From NCBI GenBank assembly GCA_947476955.1, contig CANJSS010000003.1:1-49718 (forward strand): a stretch of DNA of 49,718 nucleotides, in the 5' to 3' direction. Made by a program: the position numbers and the translations under genes. Below the pieces are notes generated by a model, which was not told the origin of the DNA, made no database searches, and saw only the letters and a list, made by a program, of their open reading frames with translations. Positions 5,335-22,147 of this stretch are shown here, one piece after another (positions within the stretch are counted from its first letter, which is position 1; each line of letters opens with the position of its first letter). Origin of the DNA: Flavobacteriales bacterium (GTDB lineage: Bacteria; Bacteroidota; Bacteroidia; Flavobacteriales_D; Crocinitomicaceae).

Positions 5335-5403
5335 AAGCTTCAATTATTTTAATAAACGTTTTAGAGAAAATTTAACAATAAATACTTTTTCAAGTTATCA
5401 AGT

Positions 5404-5976
5404 CTATTGAATAATGAGTTGGTATTTTGCAAGCAAACCTGGAATACCATTCAAGGAAAATCTTGCTTTTTTCACCTTATTTTCCTCCGGATCAATTAAG
5501 TAGGCAAAAGAGGTTCGGAAATCTGATTTTTCCAAATTTGTTTGATAAAAAATAGCAAGTGCAAGATTACAATCTTCAAAAATTGCGGAGGAAAGATCTG
5601 CTTGCGTAAAGTCAACTTCTTCCAAATTACAATTTGTAAATCGGGTGTTCTTTAATTTTAAATCAAAAAACGAACTCAAATTTAACTGGCAATTTTCGAA
5701 AGAAAGAGAAAGTAAGAAAGCATTGCAATGCTCAAAATGTACCCCTAAAATTTTACAATCCGTAAAATACACCTCTTTTAAGGACGAATTGGCAAGCGCC
5801 GCCATGCTTAAATCACACGCTTCAAATCTGCAATTGGAAAACACGCGATTCGAAAGATCCGCTTGAGAAAAAACACAATTATAGAAAGTGCAATTTTCGT
5901 ATTCTCCTTTTCCCAAAGAGTTTAATCGAAAATCAATTCCACTAAATTCCTTATCTTCGATAAATTCTTTTGCCAT
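5404..5976 (-). CDS. Pentapeptide-repeat protein
   Basis: 190 residues made largely of A(D/N)LxN-type pentapeptides: YENCTFYNCVF, ADLSNRVFSNCRFEACDL, LKEVYFTDC, TRFTNCNLEEVDFTQADLSSAIFEDCNL. The repeats begin near residue 25 and run to about 158, enough for a right-handed quadrilateral beta-helix, interrupted around residues 85-100. Size and the central break resemble the Qnr/MfpA-like branch, some of which protect DNA gyrase, but the same architecture occurs in many proteins of unknown role. No signal peptide is visible, so it is probably cytoplasmic. It follows the MoxR gene by 46 bp on the same strand and has no obvious promoter of its own, so it is likely the last gene of that operon. Confidence 0.8.
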   Translation of the reverse strand: MAKEFIEDKEFSGIDFRLNSLGKGEYENCTFYNCVFSQADLSNRVFSNCRFEACDLSMAALANSSLKEVYFTDCKILGVHFEHCNAFLLSLSFENCQLNLSSFFDLKLKNTRFTNCNLEEVDFTQADLSSAIFEDCNLALAIFYQTNLEKSDFRTSFAYLIDPEENKVKKARFSLNGIPGLLAKYQLIIQ

Positions 5977-6022
5977 ATTTTCTTAGCAATAAAAAATGTA
6001 TTTAAAGAATTTGAAAGTAGAT

Positions 6023-16431: not shown

Positions 16432-17673
16432 ATGTACGAAATTAAACCCGAAATTTTCACACTTTCCAATGGCATTCGTGTCGTGTATTTGCATACGCCG
16501 TCCCAAGTAGCGCATTTGGGAATTACAGTTCTTGCAGGTTCTAGATTTGAACGAAAAGCAGAAGATGGATTAGCACATTTTTTAGAGCATTGTATTTTTA
16601 AGGGAACAAAAAAACGAAAAGCTTTTCATATTTTATCCCGTTTGGATTCCGTTGGTGGTGAATTGAATGCCTACACTGCAAAAGAGGAAATGTGCGTTTA
16701 TGCTTCGTTTACGAAAGAACATATTCGCAGAGCTTCGGAATTATTAGCGGATATAACCTTGAATTCAAATTTTCCAATGAAAGAAATTCAAAAGGAAAAA
16801 GAAATTATTCTGGATGAAATAAATTCCTATCTCGATAGCCCAAGTGATAAAATATTCGACGATTTTGAAGAACATTTGTTTAAGGGCCATTCCCTAGGTA
16901 ATAATATTTTAGGAACGAAGAATCGGGTTCAAGGATTTGCCCGTTCCAATCTGCAAGAGTACGTAAAGCGATTTTTTACTACTGAAAATATGGTAATTTC
17001 ATTTGTTGGGGAAATTGGAAGAAACCGCTTGGAAAAAATATTAGAAGAGGATTTTAAACATTGTATATTAGGAAAAAACAGCGAAACTACTGAGAAATTT
17101 GAGCTCAACAAACGGTTTAAAATTCGAACCAAAGAAGCAAATTACCAAGTACATGCAATTGTTGGTGGAATTGCACCAAATTACAAAGAAGAATCCCGCC
17201 GCGGAATGACTTTATTGACCAATATTCTCGGCGGACCAGCATTAAATTCCCGCTTAACACTTTCCATTCGGGAGAAATATGGCTATTCCTATAATGTGGA
17301 AGCAAATTATACGCCTTATGTTGATACAGGATTTTGGAGTGTATACTTGGGGACAGACCCAAAGTATATTGATAAATCGATAGCATTGATATACAAAGAA
17401 CTGAAACTTCTTAGAACTAAGAAATTGGGCGTTTTGCAGTTGAACCGAGCGAAGGAACAATTAAAAGGACATCTTGCACTTGGAATGGATAGCAATTCTG
17501 GTTTGATGTTAGGATTGGGAAAAAGTTTGCTGTTGTTCAATCAAATTGACACGATTCAAGAAATCTACCAAGGAATTGACAAACTTGAAGCAAGCGAATT
17601 GCTAGAAATTGCCAACCAGTATTTTTCAGAAGAAAATTGTAATGAACTCATTTTTGACTTAGCGGATAACTAA
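16432..17673 (+). CDS. M16-family zinc metallopeptidase
   Basis: 413 residues. The inverted zinc motif HFLEH (H49, E52, H53) and the distal Glu in EKEIILDEINSYLDSP mark an active pitrilysin/M16B peptidase. The second half (RSNLQEYVKRFFTTENMVISFVG, then GPALNSRLTLSIREKYGYSYNV) is the non-catalytic M16C domain with its R/Y pair. No signal peptide is visible, so it is probably cytoplasmic, as for the YmxG-like branch. Last gene of the DUF4494-pdxH operon. Substrate unknown. Confidence 0.93.
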   Translation: MYEIKPEIFTLSNGIRVVYLHTPSQVAHLGITVLAGSRFERKAEDGLAHFLEHCIFKGTKKRKAFHILSRLDSVGGELNAYTAKEEMCVYASFTKEHIRRASELLADITLNSNFPMKEIQKEKEIILDEINSYLDSPSDKIFDDFEEHLFKGHSLGNNILGTKNRVQGFARSNLQEYVKRFFTTENMVISFVGEIGRNRLEKILEEDFKHCILGKNSETTEKFELNKRFKIRTKEANYQVHAIVGGIAPNYKEESRRGMTLLTNILGGPALNSRLTLSIREKYGYSYNVEANYTPYVDTGFWSVYLGTDPKYIDKSIALIYKELKLLRTKKLGVLQLNRAKEQLKGHLALGMDSNSGLMLGLGKSLLLFNQIDTIQEIYQGIDKLEASELLEIANQYFSEENCNELIFDLADN

Positions 17674-17853
17674 TACTTGAATTCTTTTTTTTTCCTTTTA
17701 GATCTTATTTCATTCCTGTTTTTCATCCCAGCAGTCACTATTTTAGTTAATTCAAAAAAAACTAACAGAAAATGTAAGCTCCTTCGTTGAAGAAGTTTAT
17801 CGTTTCATTGAATCCTACTTCTCGCATTAAAAACAAGGATTAACTTAGGTTCT

Positions 17854-18054
17854 AGTTTAATGGTTATAGTAGATTCGTTTTAGGTTTAGTTTAAGAGTTT
17901 GATTTTTTCAAAGTTGCAAGTAAAATAGAAAGTGATTTCAGTTGAAAACAATATTTGGGAAATTAAACATACAAAGTTTGGATGTGGGCGGCTACCTAGT
18001 AGTTATTCCGGCTGAGTAATTAAAAGGAAGTTATGCAAGTAACTTCCTTTTTTT
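17854..18054 (+). ncRNA. Candidate sibling sRNA, unit 1 (long, possibly decayed)
   Basis: Begins with the shared 5' element AGTTTAATGGTTATAGTAG (17854-17872), which continues to AGGTTTAGTTTAA ending at 17894. Compared with units 2 and 3 it lacks one GTA triplet and has one extra T. About 128 bases of unrelated sequence follow, including a hairpin AGTTATTC/GAGTAATT (18001-18021, G-U pairs needed), then a terminator hairpin of the same family as units 2 and 3 (stem AAAGGAAGTTA / TAACTTCCTTT, 18023-18050, then T-tract). A -7-like TAACTTAG lies at 17841-17848, but the -33 position has no TTG. It could be one 200-nt RNA, or a dead copy followed by a separate short RNA at about 17981-18054. Confidence 0.45.
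18023..18054 (+). terminator. Intrinsic terminator of unit 1
   Basis: Perfect 11-bp stem AAAGGAAGTTA (18023-18033) with TAACTTCCTTT (18040-18050), loop TGCAAG, followed by a run of T to 18054. Arms and the following CATT match the terminators of units 2 and 3. Confidence 0.8.
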
Positions 18055-18188
18055 CATTCTAGCAATTTTGAACTGTATAATACATTTAATTAAAATCTTC
18101 ATCAACCCAAAATTTCTAAGTAATATTTTCCTTTAATTGATAGAAATTATTCACTCATAGAAAAATAATCATTTTTGGTTGAAACAAA

Positions 18189-18219
18189 TTGTTATTAACG
18201 TATTCGGGGGGTAACTTAG
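18189..18219 (+). promoter_or_regulatory. Promoter of sRNA unit 2
   Basis: TTG at 18189-18191, a 20-base spacer, and TAACTTAG at 18212-18219 (one mismatch to TAnnTTTG). The -33 context AATTGTTA and the 20-base spacing are the same as in unit 3, although the spacer sequences differ. Confidence 0.55.
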
Positions 18220-18223
18220 CTTC

Positions 18224-18292
18224 AGTTTAATGGTTATAGTAGTAGATTCGTTTAGGTTTAGTTTAAAGGAAGACATAATGTCTTCCTTTTTT
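18224..18292 (+). ncRNA. Candidate sibling sRNA, unit 2
   Basis: About 69 nt: a 43-base 5' element (18224-18266) identical to that of unit 3, almost devoid of C and with GTTTAG repeated twice at its end, joined directly to a strong terminator hairpin (AAAGGAAGAC/GTCTTCCTTT, 18265-18289). The 5' element looks single-stranded, as expected for a pairing region. A 25-codon frame starts at ATG 18230, but its stop (18305-18307) lies beyond the terminator, which argues against translation. Promoter, element and terminator are all in the right order and spacing. Target unknown. Confidence 0.6.
18265..18292 (+). terminator. Intrinsic terminator of unit 2
   Basis: 10-bp perfect stem AAAGGAAGAC (18265-18274) / GTCTTCCTTT (18280-18289), loop ATAAT, T-tract to 18292. 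Confidence 0.8.
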
Positions 18293-18433
18293 CATTTCGA
18301 CAAATAAAAAGATTTTGATTTTTCGCTTTACACGCCTAAAATTCTGGATAAAGCGAAATTCAATCTTTAAAGCGCAGCTCATTGAAAGAGTTTGAACATT
18401 CGCTGAAGACTTTTTTATATTCATTGAAAGTAA

Positions 18434-18464
18434 TTGTTACAGCTGAAAATGCGCCTTATCTTTA
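18434..18464 (+). promoter_or_regulatory. Promoter of sRNA unit 3
   Basis: TTG at 18434-18436, 20-base spacer, TATCTTTA at 18457-18464 (one mismatch to TAnnTTTG). The distance from the -7 box to the conserved RNA start is 12 bases, the same as in unit 2. Confidence 0.55.
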
Positions 18465-18468
18465 TTTT

Positions 18469-18540
18469 AGTTTAATGGTTATAGTAGTAGATTCGTTTAG
18501 GTTTAGTTTAAAGGAAGATAAGCAATTGTCTTCCTTTTTT
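18469..18540 (+). ncRNA. Candidate sibling sRNA, unit 3
   Basis: About 72 nt. The 5' element at 18469-18511 is base-for-base the same as unit 2. The terminator (AAAGGAAGA ... TCTTCCTTT, 18510-18537) keeps the same arms but has a different, longer loop. Flanking sequence on both sides is unrelated to unit 2 apart from the promoter boxes, so conservation is confined to the proposed RNA. This pattern fits duplicated sRNA genes under selection for the 5' segment. Confidence 0.6.
18510..18540 (+). terminator. Intrinsic terminator of unit 3
   Basis: 9-bp stem AAAGGAAGA / TCTTCCTTT around loop TAAGCAATTG, followed by six T. Confidence 0.75.
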
Positions 18541-18689
18541 CATTTAAATTGAGGATAGAAATTTTTCAGAAGGATTAGTTTTTCAGAATGAATTGGTATT
18601 TTATTCTTCAAAAAAAGTGTTTCTACTTAATTTTGTAGGATAGTCAATTAAGTTTTACAATCATTCATAGAAACCATTTTAAAAAACGT

Positions 18690-18718
18690 TTGACTTTTTT
18701 TACTTTAACTTAAGTATA
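18690..18718 (+). promoter_or_regulatory. Possible promoter of the structured RNA
   Basis: TTG at 18690-18692, 18-base spacer, TAAGTATA at 18711-18718 (a weak match to TAnnTTTG). It would start transcription close to the predicted 5' end of the RNA. A perfect -7 box TAATTTTG at 18628-18635 is an alternative that would give a longer transcript. Confidence 0.35.
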
Positions 18719-18723
18719 CCAGT

Positions 18724-18895
18724 TCAAAGTAATACAAAAGATACTGCTTTAGTCTTTTTTGGTGAAACCAAGATGAAATTGTTTCGCTGTATAGCGTATA
18801 GCAAGAGATGGGAGTTGAATCGGCAAAGAAACGAGACAAGTAATTGTTTTGTATTATTACACCGGTGAAAAGGGCGTTCTAGGATGCCCTTTTTT
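18724..18895 (+). ncRNA. Candidate structured ncRNA upstream of glutamine synthetase
   Basis: About 170 nt. The ends pair over a long distance: GTAATACAAAA (18729-18739) with TTTTGTATT(ATT)AC (18847-18860). Inside, TTGTTTCG (18779-18786) pairs with CGAGACAA (18832-18839, one G-U), and there are local hairpins TTGGT/ACCAA (18759-18771) and CGCT/AGCG (18785-18796). A clear terminator follows. No open frame of note. The closed-rod shape with internal loops is reminiscent of 6S RNA, but I see no diagnostic sequence, so the class is left open. It could also be a long leader ahead of glnA, though the terminator argues for a separate RNA. Confidence 0.5.
18867..18895 (+). terminator. Intrinsic terminator of the structured RNA
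   Basis: Stem AAAAGGGCG / TGCCCTTTT around TTCTAGGA, followed by T-rich sequence ending TTTTTTCG. It separates the RNA from the glutamine synthetase gene 170 bp further on. Confidence 0.75.
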
Positions 18896-18983
18896 CGTTT
18901 GTACTTTTTCTAAGCCAAATCTTTCAAAAAAAACAATCAATTTCCGATATTTTACATAAATAAATTTTTTTAAGTGAAATTAA

Positions 18984-19048
18984 TAGGGGTGTGTTGATAA
19001 AAAAGTAATATTTTTTTCATTTACCCCCTAAAATTTAAGCTAAATTTG
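18984..19048 (+). promoter_or_regulatory. Promoter region of glutamine synthetase with inverted CCCCTA motif
   Basis: An exact -7 box TAAATTTG lies at 19041-19048, giving a leader of about 12 bases. Just upstream, TAGGGG (18984-18989) and CCCCTA (19025-19030) form an inverted repeat with 35 bases between. The second arm is part of TTACCCCCTAAAATT (19021-19035), which recurs with one mismatch upstream of the LuxR regulator at 21414. A regulator controlling both genes is plausible but inferred. Confidence 0.5.
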
Positions 19049-19064
19049 TAAAAAAAAATTTCCC

Positions 19065-21251
19065 ATGGCAACAAAAAGGCAACAAGCGTATCAAGATGTT
19101 TTAAATAGAACCCCAAAGCACATTGAATTCAATGGAAGAGTTTCTGAATTGTTTGGTAAAAACGTATTTCACATGGAGGTGATGCGGGAATACCTTCCTT
19201 CCGACGCATTCAAATCAATGCAGGAATCTATTCAAAATGGAACGCGTTTGGAACGTAAAATGGCCGATCAAGTTGCTTCTGCAATGAAAGATTGGGCTTT
19301 GACAAAAGGTGCTACGCATTATACCCATTGGTTTCAACCATTGACCGGATCAACAGCAGAAAAGCACGATGCATTTTTCAAACCAGTTGGTCCAGGAAGA
19401 GCAATTGAACGTTTTGATGGTGATTTATTAGTTCAACAAGAACCAGATGCATCTTCTTTTCCAAATGGTGGAATTCGAAATACTTTTGAAGCAAGAGGCT
19501 ATACTGCTTGGGATCCTTCTTCTCCAGCATTTGTAATTGGAAAAACACTTTGTATTCCAACTATTTTCATTTCGTATACTGGTGAATCTTTGGATTATAA
19601 AATGCCTTTGCTAAAAGCATTAAATGCGGTAGATCAGGCTGCAACGGAAGTTTGTCAGTATTTTGATAAAAATGTAACGAAGGTAAATGCAACTTTAGGT
19701 TGGGAACAAGAATATTTTTTAATTGACCAATCGTTGTTCAATGCGCGTCCGGATCTTATGATGACAGGAAGGGCATTGTTTGGACATGCTGCGGCTAAAG
19801 GTCAGCAATTGGAGGATCATTATTTTGGTTCAATTCCAGATCGAGTTGCAGCATTTATGCGTGAGTTTGAAACAGAATCCATTCTACTTGGAATTCCTGT
19901 TACAACGCGTCACAATGAAGTTGCTCCAAATCAATTTGAATGTGCTCCGATGTTTGAGGAATGTAATCTGGCAAATGACCACAATTTATTGTTAATGGAC
20001 ATAATGGAAAAAACGGCTAGAAAGCACAATTTCCGTGTTTTATTGCATGAAAAACCATTCGCTGGTGTAAATGGTTCTGGAAAACACAACAATTGGTCAT
20101 TGGCAACAAATACAGGCGTCAATTTATTAGCTCCAGGAAAAAATCCAAAATCGAATCTACAATTTCTCACGTTTTTTGTGAATACTATCAAGGCAATTCA
20201 CGACCATGCGGATATTTTACGCGCGTGCATCGCATCTGCAGGAAACGATCACCGATTGGGAGCAAATGAAGCTCCGCCTGCAATTATTTCCGCATTTATT
20301 GGTTCTCAGTTGTCTGGCTTATTGGATGAGATTGAACAAAATGTGAAAGCGGGCAGAATGACACCGGAGGAAAAGACAGAGTTGAAATTGAATATTGGAA
20401 AAATCCCACAAATTTTATTAGATAATACGGATAGAAATAGAACGTCTCCATTTGCTTTTACTGGGAATAAATTTGAATTCCGTGCAGTTGGTTCAACTGC
20501 AAATTGTGGGTCTGCAATGATTGTTTTGAATACAATTATGGCAAACCAATTAATAGCATTCAAAAAATCAGTCGATGTTCGAATTGATAAAGGCGAAGCA
20601 AAAGATGAAGCAATATTGAAAGAACTGCAAAAGTTGATTAAGGAATCCAAGAAAATTCGTTTCGAAGGAAATGGATACGGAGACGAGTGGGTGAAAGAAG
20701 CAGAGAAAAGAGGTCTTAAGAATTTAAAAGATACTCCGCGTGCATTGAAGATTTGGAGCGATAAAAAAGTAATCCATTTATTCGACGATATGAAAATATT
20801 GACGCCGCGCGAACTGGAAGCAAGACAGGAAATTGAATTTGATAATTATACCTTGAAAATTCAAATAGAAGCAAGAATTATTGGCGATGTTGTTCAATCC
20901 ATGATTATTCCGGCTGTAGTGGATTACCAAAATAAATTACTGAAAAATGTACAAGGTTTGTTAGCCGTTTTAGGAGAAAAAGTAGGAAATGAAGCTGCAA
21001 AAGCGCAAATCGAGCTAATTCAAAGGATTTCGGCGCATTTTAATAGCATGAAATCTACTGCAGACTTGATGTTGACTGCACGTAAAGCAGCAAATAAATT
21101 TCTACATGCAGAAGAAAAGGCAATAGCGTATTGCGATTTGGTAAAAGTTCACTTTGAAGAAATACGTTACCATGCAGATAAATTGGAACTATTGGTAGAT
21201 GACGAATTATGGCCATTGCCGAAATTTAGAGAAATGCTATTTACACGTTAA
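19065..21251 (+). CDS. glnN: Type III glutamine synthetase
   Basis: 728 residues, the size of the GSIII family common in Bacteroidota (type I is about 450). It makes glutamine from glutamate, ammonia and ATP. Signatures: THYTHWFQPLTGSTAEKHDAF, then LGWEQEYFLID, RHNEVAPNQFECAPMFE, LLHEKPFAGVNGSGKHNNWS, and GANEAPPAIISAFIGSQL. The C-terminal helical domain (IQIEARIIGDVVQSMIIPAVVDYQN ... LHAEEKAIAYCDLV) is typical of GSIII. Start ATG follows a perfect -7 box by 17 bp, so the leader is short. It is monocistronic with its own terminator, and the upstream shared motif suggests nitrogen-related control. The symbol glnA is also used for this enzyme. Confidence 0.95.
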   Translation: MATKRQQAYQDVLNRTPKHIEFNGRVSELFGKNVFHMEVMREYLPSDAFKSMQESIQNGTRLERKMADQVASAMKDWALTKGATHYTHWFQPLTGSTAEKHDAFFKPVGPGRAIERFDGDLLVQQEPDASSFPNGGIRNTFEARGYTAWDPSSPAFVIGKTLCIPTIFISYTGESLDYKMPLLKALNAVDQAATEVCQYFDKNVTKVNATLGWEQEYFLIDQSLFNARPDLMMTGRALFGHAAAKGQQLEDHYFGSIPDRVAAFMREFETESILLGIPVTTRHNEVAPNQFECAPMFEECNLANDHNLLLMDIMEKTARKHNFRVLLHEKPFAGVNGSGKHNNWSLATNTGVNLLAPGKNPKSNLQFLTFFVNTIKAIHDHADILRACIASAGNDHRLGANEAPPAIISAFIGSQLSGLLDEIEQNVKAGRMTPEEKTELKLNIGKIPQILLDNTDRNRTSPFAFTGNKFEFRAVGSTANCGSAMIVLNTIMANQLIAFKKSVDVRIDKGEAKDEAILKELQKLIKESKKIRFEGNGYGDEWVKEAEKRGLKNLKDTPRALKIWSDKKVIHLFDDMKILTPRELEARQEIEFDNYTLKIQIEARIIGDVVQSMIIPAVVDYQNKLLKNVQGLLAVLGEKVGNEAAKAQIELIQRISAHFNSMKSTADLMLTARKAANKFLHAEEKAIAYCDLVKVHFEEIRYHADKLELLVDDELWPLPKFREMLFTR

Positions 21252-21430: not shown

Positions 21431-21453
21431 ACAAAATTAGTAATTTTGTTTAA
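21427..21453 (+). promoter_or_regulatory. Perfect 13-bp inverted repeat overlapping the -7 box of the LuxR gene
   Basis: Arm TTAAACAAAATTA (21427-21439), one central G, and TAATTTTGTTTAA (21441-21453). The second arm contains the exact -7 box TAATTTTG (21441-21448). A protein bound here would block RNA polymerase, so it is a candidate operator, possibly for autoregulation. Confidence 0.55.
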
Positions 21454-21469
21454 AACAATTCTAAATAAG

Positions 21470-22147
21470 GTGCACATTATTTTAGCAGATAGTAATGATT
21501 TAGTGCGGGTAGGAATGAGAACCATTCTTAGCTCACAAAATGCTTTTAAAATCGTTGGTGAGGCCAGAAATAAGGAAGAATTAATTCAGATTGTCAAGAA
21601 TTTTGGTGCAGCGGTTATTTTAATAGATTATACTTCACAAGGTTTTGATATCGATGTTATTCCAAAGATTTTATCGTTTCAGCCGGCGGCTAAATTTTTA
21701 GCAATTACGCCAGATCAATCTGCACAAACCTTAGTTAATGCCTTGCGATCGGGTGTGAAAAGTTACGTTAAAAAAGACTGTGAATTATCTGAAATCATAA
21801 GCGCCGTTGAAGAAACAGGGAAAGGGAATAAGTTTTTTTGTGGACAGATATTAGAAACTATTCAGCGCGCTTCCATTGATGTAAACGACATAGATTTCGA
21901 ATCCTTTTCGTGTGAAGCGGTAATTGTTTCGGAGCGTGAAAATGAAATTATTGTGTTGATTGCAGAAGGAATGACCAATGCGCAAATTGCGGAATACCTC
22001 TTTTTGAGCAACCACACAATCAACACGCATAGAAAAAATATTATGGCAAAATTAGGTGTTAAAAATACTGCCGGAATTGTAATGTATGCCGTAAAAACGA
22101 ATTTAGTTTCTCCGAATAAATTTCTATTTGCAGCGGAATTAAATTAA
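21470..22147 (+). CDS. LuxR/NarL-family response regulator
   Basis: 225 residues from GTG 21470. Residues about 1-120 form a receiver domain: VHIILADSND, AVILIDYTSQGFD with the likely phospho-acceptor Asp, SGVKSYVKKDCELSEI with the conserved Lys. The C-terminal 65 residues are a LuxR helix-turn-helix (SERENEIIVLIAEGMTNAQIAEYLFLSNHTINTHRKNIMAKLGVKN). The acidic pocket has only one clear Asp where DD is usual, and the phospho-Asp is followed by YTSQG rather than xxMPxxxG. An upstream TTG (21446) is inside the -7 box, so GTG is preferred. No histidine kinase is adjacent. It sits 200 bp after glutamine synthetase. Confidence 0.85.
   Translation: MHIILADSNDLVRVGMRTILSSQNAFKIVGEARNKEELIQIVKNFGAAVILIDYTSQGFDIDVIPKILSFQPAAKFLAITPDQSAQTLVNALRSGVKSYVKKDCELSEIISAVEETGKGNKFFCGQILETIQRASIDVNDIDFESFSCEAVIVSERENEIIVLIAEGMTNAQIAEYLFLSNHTINTHRKNIMAKLGVKNTAGIVMYAVKTNLVSPNKFLFAAELN

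Follow-up and report, generated by a model that had tools for sequence, protein, structure and literature searches.

Tandem units with a shared 5' element upstream of glnN in a member of the Crocinitomicaceae: a candidate small RNA family with short and long forms

In the analysed window, the whole stretch of 49,718 nucleotides from a bacterium of the Crocinitomicaceae, a gene for an M16 peptidase (16432-17673) and the glutamine synthetase gene glnN (19065-21251) flank 1.39 kb of intergenic DNA, where listed frames reach 56 codons at most. The 18-mer GTTTAATGGTTATAGTAG was found three times in this interval, at 17855, 18225 and 18470 of the forward strand, each time preceded by an A and followed on the 3' side by an intrinsic terminator (Table 1). 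When up to three mismatches were allowed, dinucleotide shuffles of the window contained on average 0.03 copies, and three copies were reached in 0 of 100 shuffles. No further copy at two or fewer mismatches was detected in the genome from which the window derives (2.70 Mb in 179 contigs, 95% complete). Units 2 and 3 match base for base throughout the element and on into the terminator arm, and the element of unit 1 is a net two bases shorter, by eye because 3 bases are deleted and 1 is inserted. The first-pass annotation had described three sibling small RNA genes of about 70 nt with a common 5' element, which was said to be poor in C and unpaired, and common terminator arms. The observation of three units with this element and their own terminators was confirmed: the arms are as described, the element is almost devoid of C, and the 41-nt arm alone folds like its shuffles (z 0.71). 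The length, on the other hand, held for units 2 and 3, whose predicted fold is dominated by the terminator hairpin, but not for unit 1, which corresponds to a much longer, structured form.

Table 1. Predicted features of the three units (positions in the window)
Feature	Position	Strand	Remark
Unit 1, direct repeats TTGAA (17787) and TTGAA (17808)	17787..17812	+	21 bp apart; presumed activator site
Unit 1, -7 box TAACTTAG	17841..17848	+	without clear -33 TTG
Unit 1, long-form RNA	17854..18054	+	predicted 201 nt; stem region and SL2 (with GGGC) between 5' element and terminator
Unit 1, 5' element	17854..17896	+	
Unit 1, SL2	17976..18013	+	counterparts in relatives covary around invariant GGGC
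Unit 1, intrinsic terminator	18022..18053	+	
Unit 2, TTGAA (18179) and -33 TTG (18189)	18179..18191	+	
Unit 2, -7 box TAACTTAG	18212..18219	+	
Unit 2, short-form RNA	18224..18292	+	predicted 69 nt: 5' element and terminator
Unit 2, terminator	18265..18292	+	
Unit 3, CTGAA (18403), TTGAA (18424) and -33 TTG (18434)	18403..18436	+	
Unit 3, -7 box TATCTTTA	18457..18464	+	
Unit 3, short-form RNA	18469..18540	+	predicted 72 nt
Unit 3, terminator	18510..18540	+	

Each unit is preceded by promoter-like sequences. In units 2 and 3, a TTG is followed after 20 bases by TAACTT or TATCTT, with 12 bases from the start of this box to the element. The first-pass annotation had recognised this arrangement but missed the YTGAA direct repeats lying upstream of it. 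With positions counted from the G of the 18-mer, YTGAA is found at -46 to -48 in all 14 copies of the element known from the genus (see below), a YTGA pair spaced by 21 or 22 bp in 11 of them (mononucleotide shuffles: 1%), TAnnTT at -13/-14 also in 11, including the three window units, and TTG at -36 to -38 in nine. When 449,718 bases sampled from the same genome were scanned on both strands, the full pattern of YTGA pair, TTG, 20 bases and TAnnTT matched only once, at unit 3 itself. YTGAA direct repeats two helical turns apart presumably resemble the sites bound by response regulators of the LytTR type.

The nucleotide search of other genomes proposed in the first-pass annotation yielded 14 exact copies of the 18-mer, all 18 bases being invariant among them, in 7 of the 26 genomes of the genus: three in the source genome (G000) and three in G018, two each in G001, G017 and G019, and one each in G022 and G010. 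The gene 5' of the copies encodes the M16 peptidase in six of the seven genomes; in the seventh, G018, the contig begins 78 bases before the first copy. Recurrence at the same locus in seven genomes argues against a decayed mobile element, a finding that the first-pass annotation had named as one that would refute its proposal.

Since all 14 copies lie at most 1.5 kb upstream of glnN and on its strand, a riboregulatory leader in which tandem terminators control glutamine synthetase expression has to be considered. Nevertheless, the glnN ATG is 525 bases away from unit 3, and glnN is preceded by a TAnnTTTG-type box of its own, TAAATTTG (19041-19048), which starts 24 bases before the ATG. Further upstream, at 18986-19028, lies a GGGG..CCCC motif, a possible operator; the same pattern, which spans 43-45 bases from the first G to the last C, occurs in the glnN upstream regions of 14 of the 26 genomes. 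Moreover, glnN is present in all 26 genomes and 19 of them carry it without the exact element, although several of these 19 are incomplete (64-99%). A leader function for glnN has therefore, in our opinion, a slim chance of being correct. Likewise, the nitrogen-related targets that the first-pass annotation had guessed from the neighbouring gene found no support, because glnN has its own promoter-like box and most genomes of the genus have glnN without the exact element. A candidate fourth RNA gene was noticed before glnN, at about 18700-18895 (+), with a terminator at 18870-18895; it shows 82.5% identity in the sister genome G018 and no match in other glnN upstream regions. Directly 3' of glnN, a LuxR-type response regulator is encoded at 21446-22147 (+), and the genome G023 (locus L066) has a second glutamine synthetase, 55% identical, with a similar regulator before it (all types read by eye).

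The 5' end of the element is conserved to an extreme degree. The long forms from five deep lineages align with an unbroken run of 19 invariant columns, whereas identity at the four-fold degenerate sites of glnN among the same lineages is just 0.30-0.41. The seven element-bearing genomes are spread over several deep lineages in a 24-row glnN tree, and G020, which lacks the element and is 71% complete, sits beside G022; the two changes counted by the program, with 13 unlabelled rows left out, are little informative. A sequence model of the element (R1) matched 24 of 399 genomes of the order at E <=0.01. Strong matches were confined to the genus, all others having E values of 4e-4 or weaker, and among the latter was a full-length diverged form in G040, G006 and G016 (loci L084, L086 and L095) composed of a TATCTTTG box, ..TTCATAGTAGTAGTTTTTAGTTTAG.. 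and a terminator, located between genes for a ZIP transporter and a NUDIX protein (types assigned by eye). In named genomes, the exact 18-mer was found in eight contigs, six of them uncultured flavobacterial MAGs; matches in an Adhaeribacter and a Saccharibacteria contig were judged from their flanks to be due to chance.

Two forms of the unit can be distinguished in the genus. Each of the seven genomes has one long form of the unit 1 type (175 to 201 nt), in which the 5' element is followed by a stem region, the SL2 hairpin, whose 5' side carries GGGC, and the terminator. Short forms number 0 to 2 per genome and measure 69-72 nt in G000 and G018, and 93-111 nt in G019, G017 and G001. A terminator hairpin with a T run follows the element in all 14 copies, with sequences that differ. 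In an alignment of six sequences, from which the G018 piece was omitted as equal to that of G000, 81% of the SL2 cells are paired compared with 65.5% in shuffles, and the covariation score of 0.487 (shuffled, 0.208) was reached in 0 of 500 shuffles. Shifting the partners lowered this score to 0.117-0.179, a slide control biased in favour of the hairpin in that the structure was drawn from the same sequences, and 17 of the 90 cells are unpaired in the drawn structure.

Copies of the element were also detected in viral sequences, the 18-mer being present in three IMG/VR contigs (L262, L263 and L264). As a bare count these matches prove nothing, because the reversed 18-mer has six viral matches. 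It is their context that distinguishes them: all six reversed matches fall within open frames of at least 229 codons, and one has a terminator-like site, whereas none of the three true matches lies in a frame longer than 49 codons, and each is preceded by an A and followed by a terminator 62-91 nt downstream. Among random positions in five viral loci, 40 of 4000 were free of frames and had a terminator-like site within 120 nt. The predicted viral RNAs, with ends set by hand, would measure about 69, 98 and 73 nt. A TAnnTT box is present at -13 in L262 and at -16 in L263 and is missing in L264, and the YTGAA pair is absent from all three. A relaxed 17-mer matched 32 viral stretches, the 29 others lying within open frames of at least 78 codons; a further near match, in L294, is inside a frame of 175 codons. 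No match to the element below E 3 was obtained among the INPHARED phages. According to PHROGs, the genes of L263 include those for a dNMP kinase and an endolysin. In L262, the gene before the viral RNA (5364-5996, -) matches phrog_3704 (E 1.3e-61), labelled ferredoxin, a label that looks doubtful for a protein of 210 residues.

Two further alternatives were weighed. The conserved 19-38 bases could be a DNA site, for instance a transcription factor site just past the start, with short terminated RNAs as by-products. The position of the block exactly at the predicted start, after a conserved promoter, would suit such a site, but by eye the block is not palindromic. Furthermore, a terminator in 14 of 14 copies and a covarying hairpin in the long form would be superfluous for a DNA site, and the viral copies retain block and terminator without the paired YTGAA repeats. 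On balance, a DNA site appears quite improbable. Alternatively, ATGGTTATAGTA in the element could be translated into a very short leader peptide (M-V-I-V..), as an ATG is located 6 bases past the predicted start in all 14 copies and in the three viral ones (frames read by eye). Third codon positions, however, are equally invariant, and this in lineages whose four-fold sites are close to saturation; the frames end by eye after about 5 to 38 codons, a length that is not conserved; and in the short forms the terminator comes at once. A leader peptide is thus, to our judgement, the least probable of the alternatives weighed here.

Absence from Rfam is consistent with the statement of the first-pass annotation that no described family is known to have this sequence. 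At threshold, the only family in the window was the cobalamin riboswitch (RF00174; 73-256, +, 89.5 bits), and none covered the units. A permissive search of 17680-19060 returned 13 matches, all under their gathering scores, DapZ and FopS among them, and the loci of six relatives returned five, all below threshold. FopS is a paralogous small RNA family described from Bacteroidaceae. The RRM protein RbpB binds its members, which pair with and repress susC start regions, a repression that RbpB counteracts; homologues of the classical RNA chaperones are stated to be missing in Bacteroides and relatives (PMC11697453). FopS copies from other Bacteroidota have the same layout as the units, with a TAnnTTTG-type box, a 5' arm and a terminator in about 70 nt. 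Units 2 and 3 share with FopS a conserved 5' arm, predicted to be unpaired, that leads into an intrinsic terminator, and a similar total length; unit 1 differs with its 201 nt. Both families also have promoters of the main-sigma (TAnnTTTG) type, several copies per genome and RRM proteins in the genome, with two RRM_1 matches over the Pfam cut-off in the source genome, and a phage-borne copy is likewise reported for FopS (PMC11697453). In contrast, the window family has three copies at one locus in the source genome, compared with 12-15 per genome for FopS in the same paper. It has added YTGAA promoter repeats and a structured long form, and it has UUAU, which pairs with AUG solely via G.U, in place of the start-codon complement UCAU of FopS.

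With the FopS covariance model (RF04319), unit 2 scored 24.0 bits (E 0.57) and unit 3 scored 19.2 bits (E 4.8), compared with a gathering score of 56, so that by this model the window RNAs would not be counted as FopS members. The model gave no match at E 0.05 in the source genome. In 299 genomes of the order, 19 matches were obtained at E <=0.05, about 15 being expected by chance, and none exceeded the cut-off, and in 395 genomes of the phylum six matches had E <=0.001, five of them over the cut-off. A common ancestry with the Bacteroides RNAs, the window RNAs being true but strongly diverged FopS members, can still be argued through a chain of intermediates: the window element resembles the G040/G006/G016 form (P 0.0005 for units 2 and 3, 0.01 for unit 1), this form resembles that of G049 (P 0.001; no search was used to choose this link), and the G049 form resembles FopS (1/3000 and 0/3000 shuffles); MAFFT also aligns the cores. 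Nevertheless, two of the three links were picked by search, direct local alignment of window cores with FopS gave P values of 0.04-0.62 against dinucleotide shuffles, which is not significant, and neither is the similarity of the window forms to those of G049 (0.26-0.54) and G008 (0.65-0.88). In addition, complementarity to start regions could yield likeness by convergence. Altogether, common ancestry seems unlikely.

Two other small RNAs were compared by description. GibS of Bacteroides, like the window family, has a long unpaired 5' seed in its first 30-50 nt, but it is encoded by a single intergenic gene under promoter motif PM2 and has two seeds (PMC7366714). Rfp18 of Flavobacterium psychrophilum is, like the window family, a flavobacterial small RNA conserved across species, and its deletion has a phenotype; it is, however, described as strongly folded and as pairing via its third stem-loop (PMC9723704). 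The 17-base core, in DNA or RNA letters, was not found in the literature searched. Searches for Bacteroidota small RNA families with RRM proteins or in Flavobacteriia led to FopS alone (PMC11697453), and those combining multicopy small RNAs with glutamine synthetase to nothing but an unrelated review.

The best reading of the sequence data is that the three units are small RNA genes of a new family with two forms. As a whole, we favour, with a probability of roughly 0.6, tandem, separately transcribed small RNA genes of a family absent from Rfam, in which the shared 5' arm is a FopS-like functional module; the interpretation given in the first-pass annotation is partly supported, the sequence being in favour of small RNA genes that have intrinsic terminators and an unpaired 5' segment under selection. 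From the anatomy of the units and the analogy with FopS, we infer the following course. Transcription would probably begin with the A of AGTTTAATGG, which lies about 12 bases downstream from the first base of a TAnnTT box taken to be that of the main Bacteroidota sigma factor, and would probably be boosted by a regulator binding the YTGAA repeats. Every RNA would begin with the same unpaired arm of 19-38 nt, followed at once by the terminator in the short form, and by extra hairpins before the terminator in the long one. That the window RNAs work like FopS is the leading hypothesis: the arm would most likely base-pair with mRNAs near their start codons, bind an RRM protein, or both, and its action would lower translation of a set of genes. 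More tentatively, and with the odds rather against it, the 19-nt 5' end can be pictured as a portable regulatory tag that the host RNA family has fused to short and long bodies, and that phages infecting these bacteria have adopted for their own small RNAs, which could mimic or titrate the host RNA network through, for example, the RRM protein or the targets of the tag. If this is a second, independent-looking family with the FopS layout in Flavobacteriales, its viral copies and the extreme conservation of its 5' end included, the small RNA with an unpaired 5' arm would be suggested as a phylum-wide device and as one exploited by phages. The 19-mer provides a short, testable sequence for finding a protein or mRNA partner.

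Target prediction with the 5' segment, also proposed in the first-pass annotation, gave no result beyond chance: over 347 sampled start regions, duplexes of the window element were no better than those of shuffled elements (7 of 25 shuffled elements equalled it), and pairing is treated here as a hypothesis. On the same regions, none of 25 shuffles was as low as the FopS arm, and the G040 form was weaker (3 of 25). The best target of the window element was an ACT-like gene (type by eye) at -25.9 kcal/mol, a value that 21 of 150 shuffled elements also reached. When this gene was followed through 23 genomes with the G000 element, the site was good in G000 and its sister G018 (-21.8) only; values in other element-bearing genomes were -19.9 (G010), -9.8 (G022) and -12.4 (G019), G002 and G006 reached -20.2 and -19.9 without having the exact element, and no match to the gene was found in G001, G017 and G024. 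Outside the units, CTACTACTATGA had one match each in G000, G001 and G017, located over a start codon in G001 and G017 only.

A merged model (R2), built from six window-type cores, the G040, G016, G008 and G049 forms and two FopS sequences, matched 49 of the 399 genomes of the order at E <=0.01. Out of 22 matches inspected, 12 overlap, on the opposite strand, the start codon of an open frame with at least 60 codons (ATG opposite CAT), and the FopS-type motif is therefore the complement of common Bacteroidota start regions. In the sampled part of the source genome, R2 gave five weak matches, three of them antisense over start codons of signal-peptide-like proteins, which are due more to the FopS-type part of the model than to the window element. 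Four of the 22 inspected matches lack an open frame of that length, have a terminator close by and resemble RNA genes: those in G049 and G008, both training rows of R2, and those in G024 and G225. The corresponding loci (L241, L247, L253 and L255, respectively, for G049, G008, G024 and G225) hold further candidate small RNAs of a FopS-like type from Flavobacteriales, each with a terminator.
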